Positions 26,388 through 30,740 of a DNA stretch of 64,000 nt are shown piece after piece. A program made the translations under genes and the position numbers. The notes under the pieces were generated by a model. That model was given only the letters and a program-made list of their open reading frames with translations, did not search any database and had not been told where the DNA came from. This stretch comes from Archaeoglobus sp. JdFR-27 (lineage in GTDB: Archaea > Halobacteriota > Archaeoglobi > Archaeoglobales > Archaeoglobaceae), in contig MTMO01000008.1 in NCBI GenBank assembly GCA_002011235.1, positions 1-64,000 on the forward strand, written 5' to 3'. The first letter of the stretch is position 1; every line of letters begins with the position of its first letter.

Positions 26388-27902
26388 TTAAAGAATTTTA
26401 TCTCTGATAAGCAATGCCACAAGCGTTGCAATCACTATCAAGGCTCCAATTCCGAAGAGGAATTCAAAGCTATAGAAGTCAATCATGCTTTCTTCGACTT
26501 TTTGTTCCGGAGACGGCAAAGGAGTGTTCGTCTCCTTAATTTCCTTCTTTGATGTTTCCTTCTCTTCTTTTATAACTTCTTTTTTCTCCGCAGAGATCGG
26601 GCTCATCGATGGGTAGATGTCTTTTACATTTTTCGGCGGGATTATGTAATCCTGATCTCCAATTCCATCCCCATATGCATCACTTCCCTTGTAATCGGAG
26701 TAGTAATTGCCTTTTTTAAGCTCAGGGGAGAACCAGAGATTTTCTTTTCCTTCATCGTAAGCATTTCTATCGGCGAAAATGCTGTTCAAATAAATGAGGT
26801 TTCTCTGGCTCTCTCTCACAAGAAATATTCCTCTCTCAGCATTTTCAATCCAGTTACCTGTTATGGTGCTTGAGGACGTATCTTGGAAGGAAATTGCAGC
26901 TCCTCCAGCGATTCTATTGCTATTAAAAAGGTTGTAGGAGGACGATGTTGAAACTATTCCCTTTTTATTATTCAAGAGTTCATTAGAGGTAAAATAGTTA
27001 TCCTTTGAATTAGAAACAAAAATTCCATTTTCGGAATTTGAAATTGTGTTATCAATCACCTTGCTTTCTCTTGTATTCTCAAAAAATATCCCGTTCCTGT
27101 TTCCTTCAAAGTTACTTCCATAGATTTTGCAGTTCTTAGAGCTGTAAACTTTGATTCCATCAAATTTATTTTGCAAAGCTTCAAGTCCTGAGACCCTCAC
27201 ATTTTCAGAATTGTATACATATAGGCCAAATTTCTCGTTTAGAGCCGATTTGCATTTGTTGATTGTGATGTCTTTGGAGTTTTTCAGATAAATTCCAAAA
27301 CCATTATCTTCAAAAACTGAATTATAGATCAATATTCTTTCCGAATTTGAGAGCAAAATCCCATTCTCTGTATTACTTTTCCCTTCTAAATTGCTTAGTT
27401 CAGCGTCATCAACCCCCTCAAGCCCAAATCCTGTTTTTTTAACATCATAAACTCTACAATTTCTGAGTGTAAGATCCTTTACATTTGAGAAGTATATACC
27501 GAAAAATCCAGCCTTGGTTTTAATATTATAAACCGAAGCTTTACTAACATCCCTCAGAAGAACACCATAAACCCAGTTCTCAAACGAGAGGTTTTTGATT
27601 GTTATGTTCTTCAATCCGGCCTGGTGATAAATGAGAACACCATACGTCCCTCCAAATAATCCCGCAGTAATCTTGTGATTTTCACCATCCAAAGTTACAT
27701 CGCTGCTTCTTATTTCAATGCATGTGGTCTTGTTCACAACGAAATCAGAATCAAGAACGTAATAACCGGGTTCGTCGATGAGAGTACATGTAGAAATGTG
27801 ATTAACTTGAGCATTTGCTGGCAAAATCAAAGCTAAGACCGATAACATAAAGAAGATTACCAGAAAAAATTCTTTGGTAATTCTGTAACCTTTTATTCGC
27901 AT
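26388..27902 (-). CDS. Secreted NosD-like parallel beta-helix protein, C-terminal anchor
   Basis: Exported protein of 504 residues. It has a basic N-terminus and hydrophobic signal (FFLVIFFMLSVLALILPANA), then about fifteen short repeats typical of right-handed beta-helices of the NosD/PbH1 type (for example SNSENGIFVSNSKDNYFTSN). A DxDGxGDxD-like loop follows (DAYGDGIGDQDYIIPP), then a charged Glu/Lys linker and a C-terminal TM (FLFGIGALIVIATLVALLI). NosD domains bind copper or sugars; neither can be claimed here. No PGF-type sorting motif is visible at the C-terminus, so archaeosortase processing is not evident. It lies alone, divergent from the peptide/radical SAM cassette. Confidence 0.85.
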   Translation of the reverse strand: MRIKGYRITKEFFLVIFFMLSVLALILPANAQVNHISTCTLIDEPGYYVLDSDFVVNKTTCIEIRSSDVTLDGENHKITAGLFGGTYGVLIYHQAGLKNITIKNLSFENWVYGVLLRDVSKASVYNIKTKAGFFGIYFSNVKDLTLRNCRVYDVKKTGFGLEGVDDAELSNLEGKSNTENGILLSNSERILIYNSVFEDNGFGIYLKNSKDITINKCKSALNEKFGLYVYNSENVRVSGLEALQNKFDGIKVYSSKNCKIYGSNFEGNRNGIFFENTRESKVIDNTISNSENGIFVSNSKDNYFTSNELLNNKKGIVSTSSSYNLFNSNRIAGGAAISFQDTSSSTITGNWIENAERGIFLVRESQRNLIYLNSIFADRNAYDEGKENLWFSPELKKGNYYSDYKGSDAYGDGIGDQDYIIPPKNVKDIYPSMSPISAEKKEVIKEEKETSKKEIKETNTPLPSPEQKVEESMIDFYSFEFLFGIGALIVIATLVALLIRDKIL

Positions 27903-28074: not shown

Positions 28075-28084
28075 CTTATAAATT
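28075..28084 (+). promoter_or_regulatory. TATA box of the peptide/radical SAM cassette
   Basis: CTTATAAATT, preceded by purines (GAAAAG), lies 29 to 38 bases ahead of the ATG of the 21-codon gene. The ribosome binding site GAGGTGA follows at about 28102. This places a dedicated promoter directly before the small peptide gene, which supports its reality. Confidence 0.65.
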
Positions 28085-28112
28085 CTAAAATTAAGTTGTG
28101 TGAGGTGAGATC

Positions 28113-28178
28113 ATGAAAATTAAAAAGATGAAAAAAGAGGTAGCGGGTATCTGCAAGTGCAACGCTTCATGTGCCTAA
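28113..28178 (+). CDS. Putative 21-residue Cys-rich RiPP precursor peptide
   Basis: A 22-codon frame (with stop) encodes a peptide with a very basic N-terminal half (six Lys in the first eight residues), then EVAGI and a short C-terminal core CKCNASCA with three cysteines. A GAGGTGA site lies five bases before the ATG and a TATA box about 30 bases before it, so it is probably translated. It is followed by a small Cys protein and a radical SAM/SPASM enzyme with a PqqD-like domain, the usual partners of ribosomally made, modified peptides. The likely leader is residues 1-13 and the core 14-21. The modification (thioether or other) is inferred from neighbours only. It is far too short for standard gene callers. 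Confidence 0.7.
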   Translation: MKIKKMKKEVAGICKCNASCA

Positions 28179-28208
28179 TCTATTTTTTAATTTTTAAGAG
28201 GTGGGAAT

Positions 28209-28388
28209 TTGATTTCGAAAAAAGAGCTGATTGGAGTAGTATGTGGAGTTTGTGATTTCTATAAGAAAACGGATGAACAGCTTGAGTGTGGGGCGCTCAA
28301 AATCATCAGAATTTTGATCGAAAAAGGAAAACTGAATATGGAGGATTTGAGCTTTGCAGCTGAAAAAATATCCGCAATTAAAAAATAG
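28209..28388 (+). CDS. Small CxxC protein in the radical SAM cassette
   Basis: A 59-residue protein starting at TTG with GAGGTG five bases before it. The N-terminal half has VVCGVCDFYKKTDEQLECG, with Cys at 12, 15 and 27. The C-terminal half is predicted helical and charged (ALKIIRILIEKGKLNMEDLS). Three cysteines in this spacing could hold zinc or part of an Fe-S cluster, or could be modified. Its last 35 bases overlap the start of the radical SAM gene in another frame, so the two are translationally coupled. I do not recognise the family. It may be a second substrate, a carrier or a partner of the enzyme. Confidence 0.7.
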   Translation: MISKKELIGVVCGVCDFYKKTDEQLECGALKIIRILIEKGKLNMEDLSFAAEKISAIKK

Positions 28389-29541
28389 AGTTATTTTAAG
28401 GAATTTTGAGAGCCCCATCGCTTACAAATCTGCAACGGATGAGCTATACGAGCTTGATCGAGAGTCTTTCAACCTGCTGATTGATTGTGATGGTTCTAGA
28501 TCCATTAAAAGTCTGGTAGAAAAGCATGGGGAGACTTGCCAAGAAATTTTGGATTACGCAAGAAAGGAGGAGCTCATTGATTTTCTTGATGGAAAAGTTG
28601 AAGATGAGTTTTCTAAATTTAAATTTGTTCCTAAATCTCCAATCCCTTCTCTTAGATACATGCTACTTCACGTTACTTATCGATGTAATCTGAGATGTAA
28701 ACACTGTTATCTTGAAAAAAAAGATGTCTGCATGGAATTTGGTATATTCAAGCTCCTAATCGATGAGTTTGAAAAGTTAGGTGGGATAAAGATAATGATT
28801 TCAGGTGGTGAACCACTCCTTCATCCAGAAATTTGGAGAATGATCCAAGAACTAATGCATTACGAATTCAGAAAAGTTCTGATTAGCAATGGAACCATTA
28901 TTGATGAAAGAAATATTGGCAAGCTTGAAGTAGATGAGGTTCAGCTGAGCTTAGATGGACTCCCCTCTAACGATTCGATTAGGGGCCCTGGGGTGTTTGA
29001 GAAAGTAAAGAATGCGATAAGACTCTTGAGAGATGCTGGGATAGATGTCAGCATTGCGACCATGGTTCACAAGCTTAACTTGGGTGAATTTAAGGAAATG
29101 GAGAAATTCCTGAGAAATTACGATGTTAAAGTTTGGATGATTGACTATCCATCGATTGAGGGAGATTTAAAGAGTAATTTGGATTTGCTCGCAGATTTAA
29201 AGGAGGCCGCCAAGATAATGGCCATGTATGGCTTTGGTGATATGAGCCATACGGGAAAAGGAGAATATGGGTGTGGAGTTCATCTTTGTTCTTCCGATCC
29301 TGCAGGAAACATCTCAAGGTGTGGATTTTTTGATCCTGTTGGAAACATTAAAGAGGGATTGCTCGAGTGCTGGAAGAGGTTGAACGAGAAATATCTTTGG
29401 AGAATCGATGATATTGAGACATGCAACCTCTGTGAGCTAAAATATGAGTGTCGAGGTGGATGCAGATTTAGGGCGTTTACCTTTGGCAACCTCTATGGTC
29501 CTGATCCCGTTATGTGTGAGATTTCAAAGCTATCAGGCTAA
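28354..29541 (+). CDS. Radical SAM/SPASM peptide-modifying enzyme with PqqD-like N-terminus
   Basis: A 395-residue enzyme. Residues 1-85 resemble PqqD/RRE peptide-binding domains (SPIAYKSATDELYELDRESF, then IDCDGSRSIKSLVEKHG). The radical SAM core follows with CNLRCKHC (111-118) and the GGEP motif (151-154). The C-terminal SPASM domain binds auxiliary clusters through the CGVHLC and RCGFF cysteines (about 308-325), then C357, C360, C366, C370 and C388. This layout is that of sactipeptide and related RiPP maturases, with heme-pathway NirJ/AhbC/AhbD proteins as the main alternative. The PqqD-like domain and adjacent peptide gene argue for the former. The start is TTG within the preceding gene. 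No transporter or protease gene follows. Confidence 0.85.
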   Translation: MQLKKYPQLKNRVILRNFESPIAYKSATDELYELDRESFNLLIDCDGSRSIKSLVEKHGETCQEILDYARKEELIDFLDGKVEDEFSKFKFVPKSPIPSLRYMLLHVTYRCNLRCKHCYLEKKDVCMEFGIFKLLIDEFEKLGGIKIMISGGEPLLHPEIWRMIQELMHYEFRKVLISNGTIIDERNIGKLEVDEVQLSLDGLPSNDSIRGPGVFEKVKNAIRLLRDAGIDVSIATMVHKLNLGEFKEMEKFLRNYDVKVWMIDYPSIEGDLKSNLDLLADLKEAAKIMAMYGFGDMSHTGKGEYGCGVHLCSSDPAGNISRCGFFDPVGNIKEGLLECWKRLNEKYLWRIDDIETCNLCELKYECRGGCRFRAFTFGNLYGPDPVMCEISKLSG

Positions 29542-29810: not shown

Positions 29811-30740
29811 TCACCCCATAACATCCAGATCTTTCAGAAGACTATAATTCCTATCCAGAAGGTCCAACAGGAATTCGGTCGGCCTTCCATGGTAGAATAT
29901 AACATGTTCAGGATCGCAGTGATCGATCATCGTAAGAATTCCAAGGAAATCCAGGTGGTCGCTGATAACTATTCTTGGCCACCTATAAAATCGCTGGGCG
30001 GTGAGGATATATCTCTTTCCTCTGCATTCACTAAGCCTCCTTGGAGAAACGAGGTTAACCTCGCCATCCTCTGAAGTATCAATACCAAATAGCTTGCAAA
30101 GTCTCGAGATTCTTTGGCTCGCATTAACATCGTATCCATTTTCGGTGAGAATTTTCGCAGCCCTCTGCGCTTTGCCAACTGGGTAGACACCAAGAGTCGA
30201 GTTTTCAGCATTCTCTATGAGTTTCTCGATCTCATCTTCAAAAACAAAATCTGGACTTCCATAGGTCGCTTCGGTAATAAGAACATCACATTTCGGGAGG
30301 GAAGAGAAATCCTTAACATCCCCTGTTATCAGGATTTTGTAATCCGATTCGATAAGGAAAGCAGTCGAACCAAAGATGTGCTTCGTACTGTACGTCTTGA
30401 TTTTAAGTCCATCGAGCTCAAATTTATCACCCAATCTGAAAGTTCTGCCTGAGAATCTCTTCCCTGCTATCGCTGAAAGGATCTTTGCTGTTTCAACGGA
30501 AGCTAGTGCATTCATGTTGCTGAGATTGTTCTGTCCATAGTGGTCAGAATGGGCATGGGTAATGAGGTTGTAGAATCTGTAGTCGTCGCTTTGGATCGCT
30601 CCTTTATAGCTATCTACGTGGAAATCAACAATAACATCGGAATTGAATCTGAGGGATAAATGGGGTTTTGTGCCCCTCCCTCTACCTTTGCGGCGAAAAG
30701 GAAGAAAGCCGAAGTTCTCAAGAAAATAAAGGGAGTTCAT
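29811..30740 (-). CDS. Metallo-beta-lactamase fold protein, exonuclease-like (COG1236-related)
   Basis: Zinc hydrolase of about 309 residues. The HxHxDH motif is in ITHAHSDHYGQN, further ligands are in STKHIFGSTAF and LITGDVKDFSS, and a late His is in VISDHLDFLG. EATYGSP is the pattern of the beta-CASP/Ysh1-like nuclease branch and of DNA ligase-associated exonucleases (COG1236). The full beta-CASP insert is short, so a small DNA or RNA exonuclease is more likely than an mRNA 3'-processing factor. The first 18 or so residues (up to FLPFRRKG) may be dispensable. The nearby 269 bases before 29811 hold no gene. Confidence 0.8.
   Translation of the reverse strand: MNSLYFLENFGFLPFRRKGRGRGTKPHLSLRFNSDVIVDFHVDSYKGAIQSDDYRFYNLITHAHSDHYGQNNLSNMNALASVETAKILSAIAGKRFSGRTFRLGDKFELDGLKIKTYSTKHIFGSTAFLIESDYKILITGDVKDFSSLPKCDVLITEATYGSPDFVFEDEIEKLIENAENSTLGVYPVGKAQRAAKILTENGYDVNASQRISRLCKLFGIDTSEDGEVNLVSPRRLSECRGKRYILTAQRFYRWPRIVISDHLDFLGILTMIDHCDPEHVIFYHGRPTEFLLDLLDRNYSLLKDLDVMG

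Follow-up and report, generated by a model that had tools for sequence, protein, structure and literature searches.

The closest described enzymes to the one considered here are SkfB, CteB and SuiB, which act on a small precursor peptide to give a sactipeptide, a ranthipeptide and a Lys-Trp crosslink, respectively, and which share one architecture: an RRE, a radical SAM domain and a SPASM domain. SkfB and CteB form thioethers. SbtM has been shown to convert Cys into thiooxazole (PMC11002830, a review). Thiooxazole peptides made by multinuclear iron enzymes (MNIO) bind copper, and a role in copper detoxification has been proposed for them (captophorins, PMC13097082; bufferins, PMC12452194). Few archaeal RiPP products are known (PMC12144867).

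We analysed positions 1-64,000 (forward strand) of contig MTMO01000008.1 from Archaeoglobus sp. JdFR-27 (GCA_002011235.1); this whole stretch of 64,000 nucleotides is referred to as the window. It carries a three-gene cassette consisting of a 21-residue Cys peptide, a CxxC protein (hereafter B) and a radical SAM/SPASM enzyme:

28075..28084, + strand, TATA-box-like CTTATAAATT, 5′ of the peptide gene, read directly
28102..28108, + strand, ribosome-binding site GAGGTGA of the peptide gene, read directly
28113..28178, + strand, putative precursor peptide MKIKKMKKEVAGICKCNASCA, 21 aa, ATG start and TAA stop, with a short basic leader and the core ICKCNASCA
28198..28204, + strand, ribosome-binding site GAGGTGG of the CxxC protein gene, read directly
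28209..28388, + strand, CxxC protein B, 59 aa, TTG start, containing CGVC and ECG
28354..29541, + strand, predicted radical SAM/SPASM peptide maturase, 395 aa, TTG start, containing CNLRCKHC

The enzyme gene starts inside the B gene, with an overlap of 35 nt. A preliminary description, made from sequence alone, had placed these three genes within 28113-29541, together with the TATA box and the GAGGTGA site, all of which held when read directly. Directly behind the peptide stop lies a T-rich stretch (28179-28197) that might act as a partial terminator, in which case more peptide than enzyme mRNA might be made. The divergent neighbour (26388-27902, - strand) encodes a secreted parallel beta-helix protein whose NosD-like similarity scores 112 bits against a cut-off of 300; it is probably an ordinary surface protein.

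The enzyme is predicted by its structure model to consist of an RRE/PqqD-like domain followed by radical SAM and SPASM domains. Pfam Radical_SAM matches it at 2.5e-20, and both the CxxxCxxC motif and a seven-Cys SPASM pattern (C307..G318-x4-C323, C357-x2-C360-x5-C366-x3-C370, C388) are complete, these Cys being invariant in 50 relatives and also in 17 archaeal members. The preliminary description had counted five Cys in the SPASM end, and this part failed. The AlphaFold2 model (pLDDT 94.2, pTM 0.93) shows an N-terminal domain of topology bbbb-aaa-b at a pLDDT of about 95. The top folds returned by Foldseek were SuiB, CteB and SkfB, aligned over nearly the full length, and the closest PDB chains by profile were SkfB (6.8e-31), PqqE and CteB (3.2e-22), with the CteB alignment beginning at profile residue 15. 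Taken together, the modelled topology, the near-full-length fold matches and the early start of the CteB alignment support the presence of an RRE. The PqqD-like N-terminus claimed earlier therefore held in the model; by sequence it is barely visible, Pfam PqqD giving weak matches in only 4/50 members (best E 0.038).

The enzyme has no specific family in NCBIfam or Pfam. Neither the window enzyme nor five members from other lineages reached any NCBIfam cut-off. TIGR04084 (AF1577-type) fell outside the 25 best NCBIfam models for the window enzyme, none of which was at its cut-off. One rival explanation is that the enzyme is of the heme pathway (AhbC/AhbD/NirJ-like), or acts on some other small molecule, and that the short ORF is incidental. 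In its favour, NirJ2 (92 bits) and AhbD (86 bits) are among the best NCBIfam scores. However, these lie far under the cut-offs (500), the N-terminal domain and fold match RiPP maturases, and the peptide co-occurs perfectly with the enzyme in the archaeal phylum (below), so that this explanation is practically refuted and can be all but excluded. Membership of AhbC/AhbD/NirJ, which the preliminary description had set as a check on its own proposal, was rejected at 66-92 bits against curated cut-offs of 500-650, and a heme-pathway or MoaA-like enzyme was likewise rejected on NCBIfam cut-offs and architecture. Several cassettes from Desulfobacterota and Nitrospirota come with a further SPASM radical SAM gene, a small cupin-like protein, or both (L109 7115-8415, L110 7220-7573, L120 9049-10026 and L117 8427-9458).

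The 21-residue ORF is kept in 16/16 Archaeoglobaceae loci with readable upstream DNA, which satisfies another check of the preliminary description, namely conservation of this ORF beside the enzyme in relatives. In all 16, both the peptide and B genes lie ahead of the enzyme, and the genes surrounding the trio vary between genera. Most relatives carry an AT-rich, TATA-like box at a comparable position 5′ of the peptide gene. Archaeoglobi peptides follow the pattern M[KR][IV]xK[VMI]...G[IV]CKCxx[ST]C(A), with M1, C14, K15, C16 and C20 invariant in 23 copies. Enzyme orthologues occur in 19/57 genomes of the order Archaeoglobales. Moreover, scanning GTDB contigs with the enzyme alignment recovered full-length relatives outside Archaeoglobi, at about 33-57% identity, in Methanoperedens, Mnemosynella, Hydrothermarchaeum, Nitrospirota, Thermodesulfobacteriota, Myxococcota, Actinomycetota and others; the enzyme tree clusters mostly by taxon. 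The same 20-mer adjoins the enzyme in most of these relatives, and peptides sharing the motif M-x-I-x-K-[VI]...CKCxx[ST]C were found in Methanoperedens, Hydrothermarchaeota, Nitrospirota, Thermodesulfobacteriota, Myxococcota and Actinomycetota. The earlier label of an archaeal cassette was thus too narrow, as several bacterial phyla are included. The peptide gene is 5′ of the enzyme in most archaea and Desulfobacterota and 3′ of it in Nitrospirota and Actinomycetota. Among 42 diverse peptides, M1, C14, C16 and C20 remain invariant.

We gathered 93 distinct peptides, most with a clear ribosome-binding site of GGTGA or GGAGG type. Their stop codons fall at the same place and are mixed (TAA 48, TGA 30, TAG 15). 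Selenocysteine read-through at the TGA stops was rejected on the grounds of these mixed stops and the lack of conservation of downstream residues, and the peptides contain no in-frame UGA. The Cys-terminal end is therefore real and without selenocysteine. A chance ORF was also rejected, because the peptide is conserved in relatives and occurs with the enzyme across genomes, in both the archaeal phylum and Nitrospirota. The peptide lacks a signal sequence and matches no NCBIfam or Pfam family, neither a protease nor an exporter was recognised with the cassette, and no published text containing the searched peptide motifs was found in the open-licence literature searched. At one locus (L106) the peptide gene is a tandem duplicate, with MSIKKVEKKMRGTCKCKVSC encoded twice about 1.4 kb apart.

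What most strongly marks the peptide as the substrate is its co-occurrence with the enzyme, including cases where the two are unlinked. A 20-position peptide profile, searched against the 57 genomes of the order, matched exactly the 19 that encode the enzyme. Across the archaeal phylum (394 genomes) the peptide was present in 24/24 enzyme genomes and in 0/370 others. Among a further 50 enzyme genomes, 48 hold it. For Nitrospirota (198 genomes), 58 encode both, 10 the enzyme only, 1 the peptide only and 129 neither (enzyme in 68, peptide in 59; Fisher 2.5e-38, not corrected for kinship). The pairing still holds in several genomes (G055, G056, G336, G342, G363) whose peptides are solely unlinked to the enzyme, and over 592 genomes unlinked peptides come with the enzyme in every case but one. 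Since co-occurrence persists without linkage, the enzyme evidently serves peptides in trans, and substrates may be trans-encoded. The earlier claim that the peptide is the substrate is thereby supported; modification as such, and of the Cys residues in particular, as had also been claimed, remains an inference. No recognised peptide accompanies the enzyme in ten Nitrospirota and two Asgard-type genomes. Those enzyme-only Nitrospirota that were read mostly form a distinct group in which an MBL-fold gene sits directly next to the enzyme. In four lineages, MBL-fold genes (exonuclease or beta-CASP-like) are direct neighbours of the enzyme gene or of a peptide gene unlinked to it (window 29811-30740, - strand; L211 5392-6354; L281 4047-5147; L282-L289), without comparison with chance.

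The distribution also bears on a second rival explanation, that the peptide is an unmodified mini-metallothionein or metallochaperone and that the SPASM enzyme acts elsewhere, for example on B, within a shared metal/redox regulon. CKC and CKCH resemble the metal sites of metallothioneins, which speaks for this idea, as do the many peptide copies far from the enzyme gene. Against it, the unlinked peptides depend strictly on the enzyme, apart from the single exception above; the leader-like N-terminus is conserved in copies with different neighbours; the architecture of the enzyme is that of peptide-core maturases; and a Pfam search of the peptide gave no match, metallothionein included. We therefore regard it as very unlikely, and retain the reading of the peptide as a maturase substrate.

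The third component, B, has no Pfam or NCBIfam family. In its short form, C12, C15, F17, E26 and C27 are invariant in two alignments, one of 17 archaeal members and one of 20 mixed members. Nitrospirota and Thermodesulfobacteriota possess a longer, two-module B with seven invariant Cys, and profile comparison shows the two forms to be homologous (match 96%). The structure model of B has three helices (pLDDT 87.5) and no match in the PDB. A B-like gene lies near 38/64 enzymes and was not noticed near the copper-operon peptides described below, and for this reason B probably belongs to the maturation machinery, although its role is inferred.

A pattern search first showed second, enzyme-free peptide copies bearing CKCHxSC (an example of the CKCH type is MKIKKVSREKVGICKCHSSCN). 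A P1B heavy-metal ATPase lies within 4 kb of 11/29 CKCH peptides, against 0.36 expected from ATPase counts in family searches of the same genomes (Poisson 2.5e-13), and of 0/19 non-His peptides. In a second sample, of extra Nitrospirota peptide copies picked regardless of their neighbours, 6/7 CKCH copies and one CKCY copy were beside CPC-type pumps, as were 0/4 CKCK copies. With both samples combined, His and non-His peptides differ at Fisher 0.0004. Where the neighbouring pump was readable, its motif is CPC or CPH, which marks it as Cu-type; most of the P1B set is of this type. Kinship among the copper-linked loci means that they do not all count as independent, although they span about seven lineages. 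Other neighbours of CKCH copies include YHS proteins, Met-rich exported proteins, HMA domains, a membrane-anchored rhodanese, thioredoxin-like proteins, a Ni/Co-type transporter and c-type cytochrome-like proteins; these names were read from the sequences, and only some were confirmed by profile.

Over half of the distinct peptides are not of the CKCH type (CKCK, CKCN and others, including the window peptide) and copper genes are hardly ever found next to them. The window cassette itself has none adjoining it; the copper signal does not extend to its CKCNASCA copy, and metal binding by the window product is only inferred. The suggestion in the preliminary description of a metal ligand is thus supported for the family, through the linkage of CKCH copies to copper ATPases. 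Several individual arrangements were also observed. Some Nitrospirota (L252, L260, L263, L134, L138, L149) have a CKCK peptide near, and often just upstream of, genes for a TPR lipoprotein and ispE. Two genomes of a sister family, G055 and G056, have unlinked CKCHRSC peptides directly 5′ of an exported protein carrying the heme-c motif CTTCH (L212 5461-5936, L213 3068-3540), and Hydrothermarchaeum has two extra CKCHKSC peptides among thioredoxin-like proteins and a CcmF-like protein (L254 4081-8239).

A third rival explanation holds that the product is a radical SAM-matured RiPP serving as a redox or catalytic cofactor of anaerobic metabolism, like PQQ or mycofactocin, with the copper-operon copies being a side branch, or reflecting thiol/redox stress and not the binding of copper. 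In support, CKCK/CKCN copies are near metal pumps in 0/23 cases, PqqE is among the nearest PDB sequences, and redox genes neighbour other loci (2-oxoacid:ferredoxin oxidoreductase, rubrerythrin, Fe-SOD, flavodiiron protein, cytochrome c-like and CcmF genes). Against it, there is no oxidoreductase that goes with the cassette from lineage to lineage as a dedicated partner, and copper pumps are linked far more often than chance would give, in lineages unrelated to one another. We consider a cofactor role unlikely.

Our preferred reading, to which we assign a probability of roughly 0.62, is that the cassette represents a widespread RiPP family of anaerobes, part of which serves copper handling. 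Conservation, co-occurrence, the predicted enzyme architecture and the copper-gene linkage are shown; there is no experimental evidence of modification or metal binding, and these, together with the chemistry and the role of B, are inferred. We hypothesise that the precursor is the 20-21-residue peptide, whose basic leader M-x-I-x-K-[VI] would be bound by the N-terminal RRE (PqqD-like) domain of the enzyme. The SAM radical and auxiliary Fe-S clusters would then oxidise the core CKCxx[ST]C, most likely at Cys, by chemistry of the thioether or thiooxazole type, which of the two being undetermined, with B as a dedicated partner. Peptides encoded elsewhere in the genome would be matured by the same enzyme, and the CKCH copies next to P1B ATPases may act in the handling of soft metals, above all copper, as Cu(I) ligands, buffers or chaperones. 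Thiooxazole is attractive for a copper ligand, because MNIO-made thiooxazole peptides bind copper and MNIO enzymes use O2, which strict anaerobes lack. A bolder reading, which we do not favour on balance, is that these are copper-ligand RiPPs of anaerobes, forming an old class that spans domains, in which the maturase and B install Cu-binding groups without O2 on several trans-encoded 20-mers in copper-efflux operons, as an anaerobic counterpart of the O2-dependent captophorins.

We found no description of the cassette family in the literature searched, which was open-licence only. The RRE-SPASM maturase type is already known; what appears new is a RiPP family, its modification still inferred, with trans-encoded substrates that is partly tied to copper. 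From Archaeoglobi and Methanoperedens through to Nitrospirota and Actinomycetota, a radical SAM enzyme is conserved together with a partner and a minimal putative substrate of 20 residues, and no specific NCBIfam or Pfam model was found for them. If the copper reading is true, the family could let anaerobes make copper ligands with modified Cys under conditions that rule out the O2-using MNIO enzymes. With so small a substrate, the chemistry can be tested directly in vitro, and an enzyme from relatives of a hyperthermophile is convenient for study.

Compared with SkfB, CteB and SuiB, the cassette differs in its precursor family, in having the partner B, in substrates that are also trans-encoded in copper operons, and in that no NCBIfam equivalog is reached. 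SCIFF (CteA-CteB) likewise pairs a Cys-rich precursor with a SPASM maturase. The SCIFF precursor has six Cys in about 45 residues, whereas the cassette peptide has three in 20-21. SbtA/SbtM (TIGR04081/TIGR04082) is similar in that a radical SAM/SPASM enzyme acts on a short peptide (27-position model), and the SbtA leader faintly resembles the window peptide (12 bits). However, membership was rejected (12 against 30.5 bits and 67.8 against 350 bits, with no UGA or selenocysteine in the peptides), and 21 further peptides gave no match to the SbtA/SbtM models. Methanobactin is a Cys peptide RiPP associated with copper, as is inferred from gene linkage for the CKCH subset, but it is a secreted chalkophore made by MbnBC chemistry, and the cassette has no such enzyme. 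An MNIO (DUF692) system of the captophorin, bufferin or methanobactin kind was rejected, as the conserved enzyme is a radical SAM protein. Captophorins and bufferins (5-thiooxazole products) resemble the cassette in being Cys peptides with a partner protein beside the enzyme, and their roles in copper detoxification match what is inferred for the CKCH subset, but their enzymes are O2-using. The precursors of bufferins have Sec signals and in most cases a greater size, whereas the cassette peptides are 20-21 aa, lack a signal and come from anaerobe-rich lineages. The cassette may possibly be an O2-independent counterpart of the captophorins.
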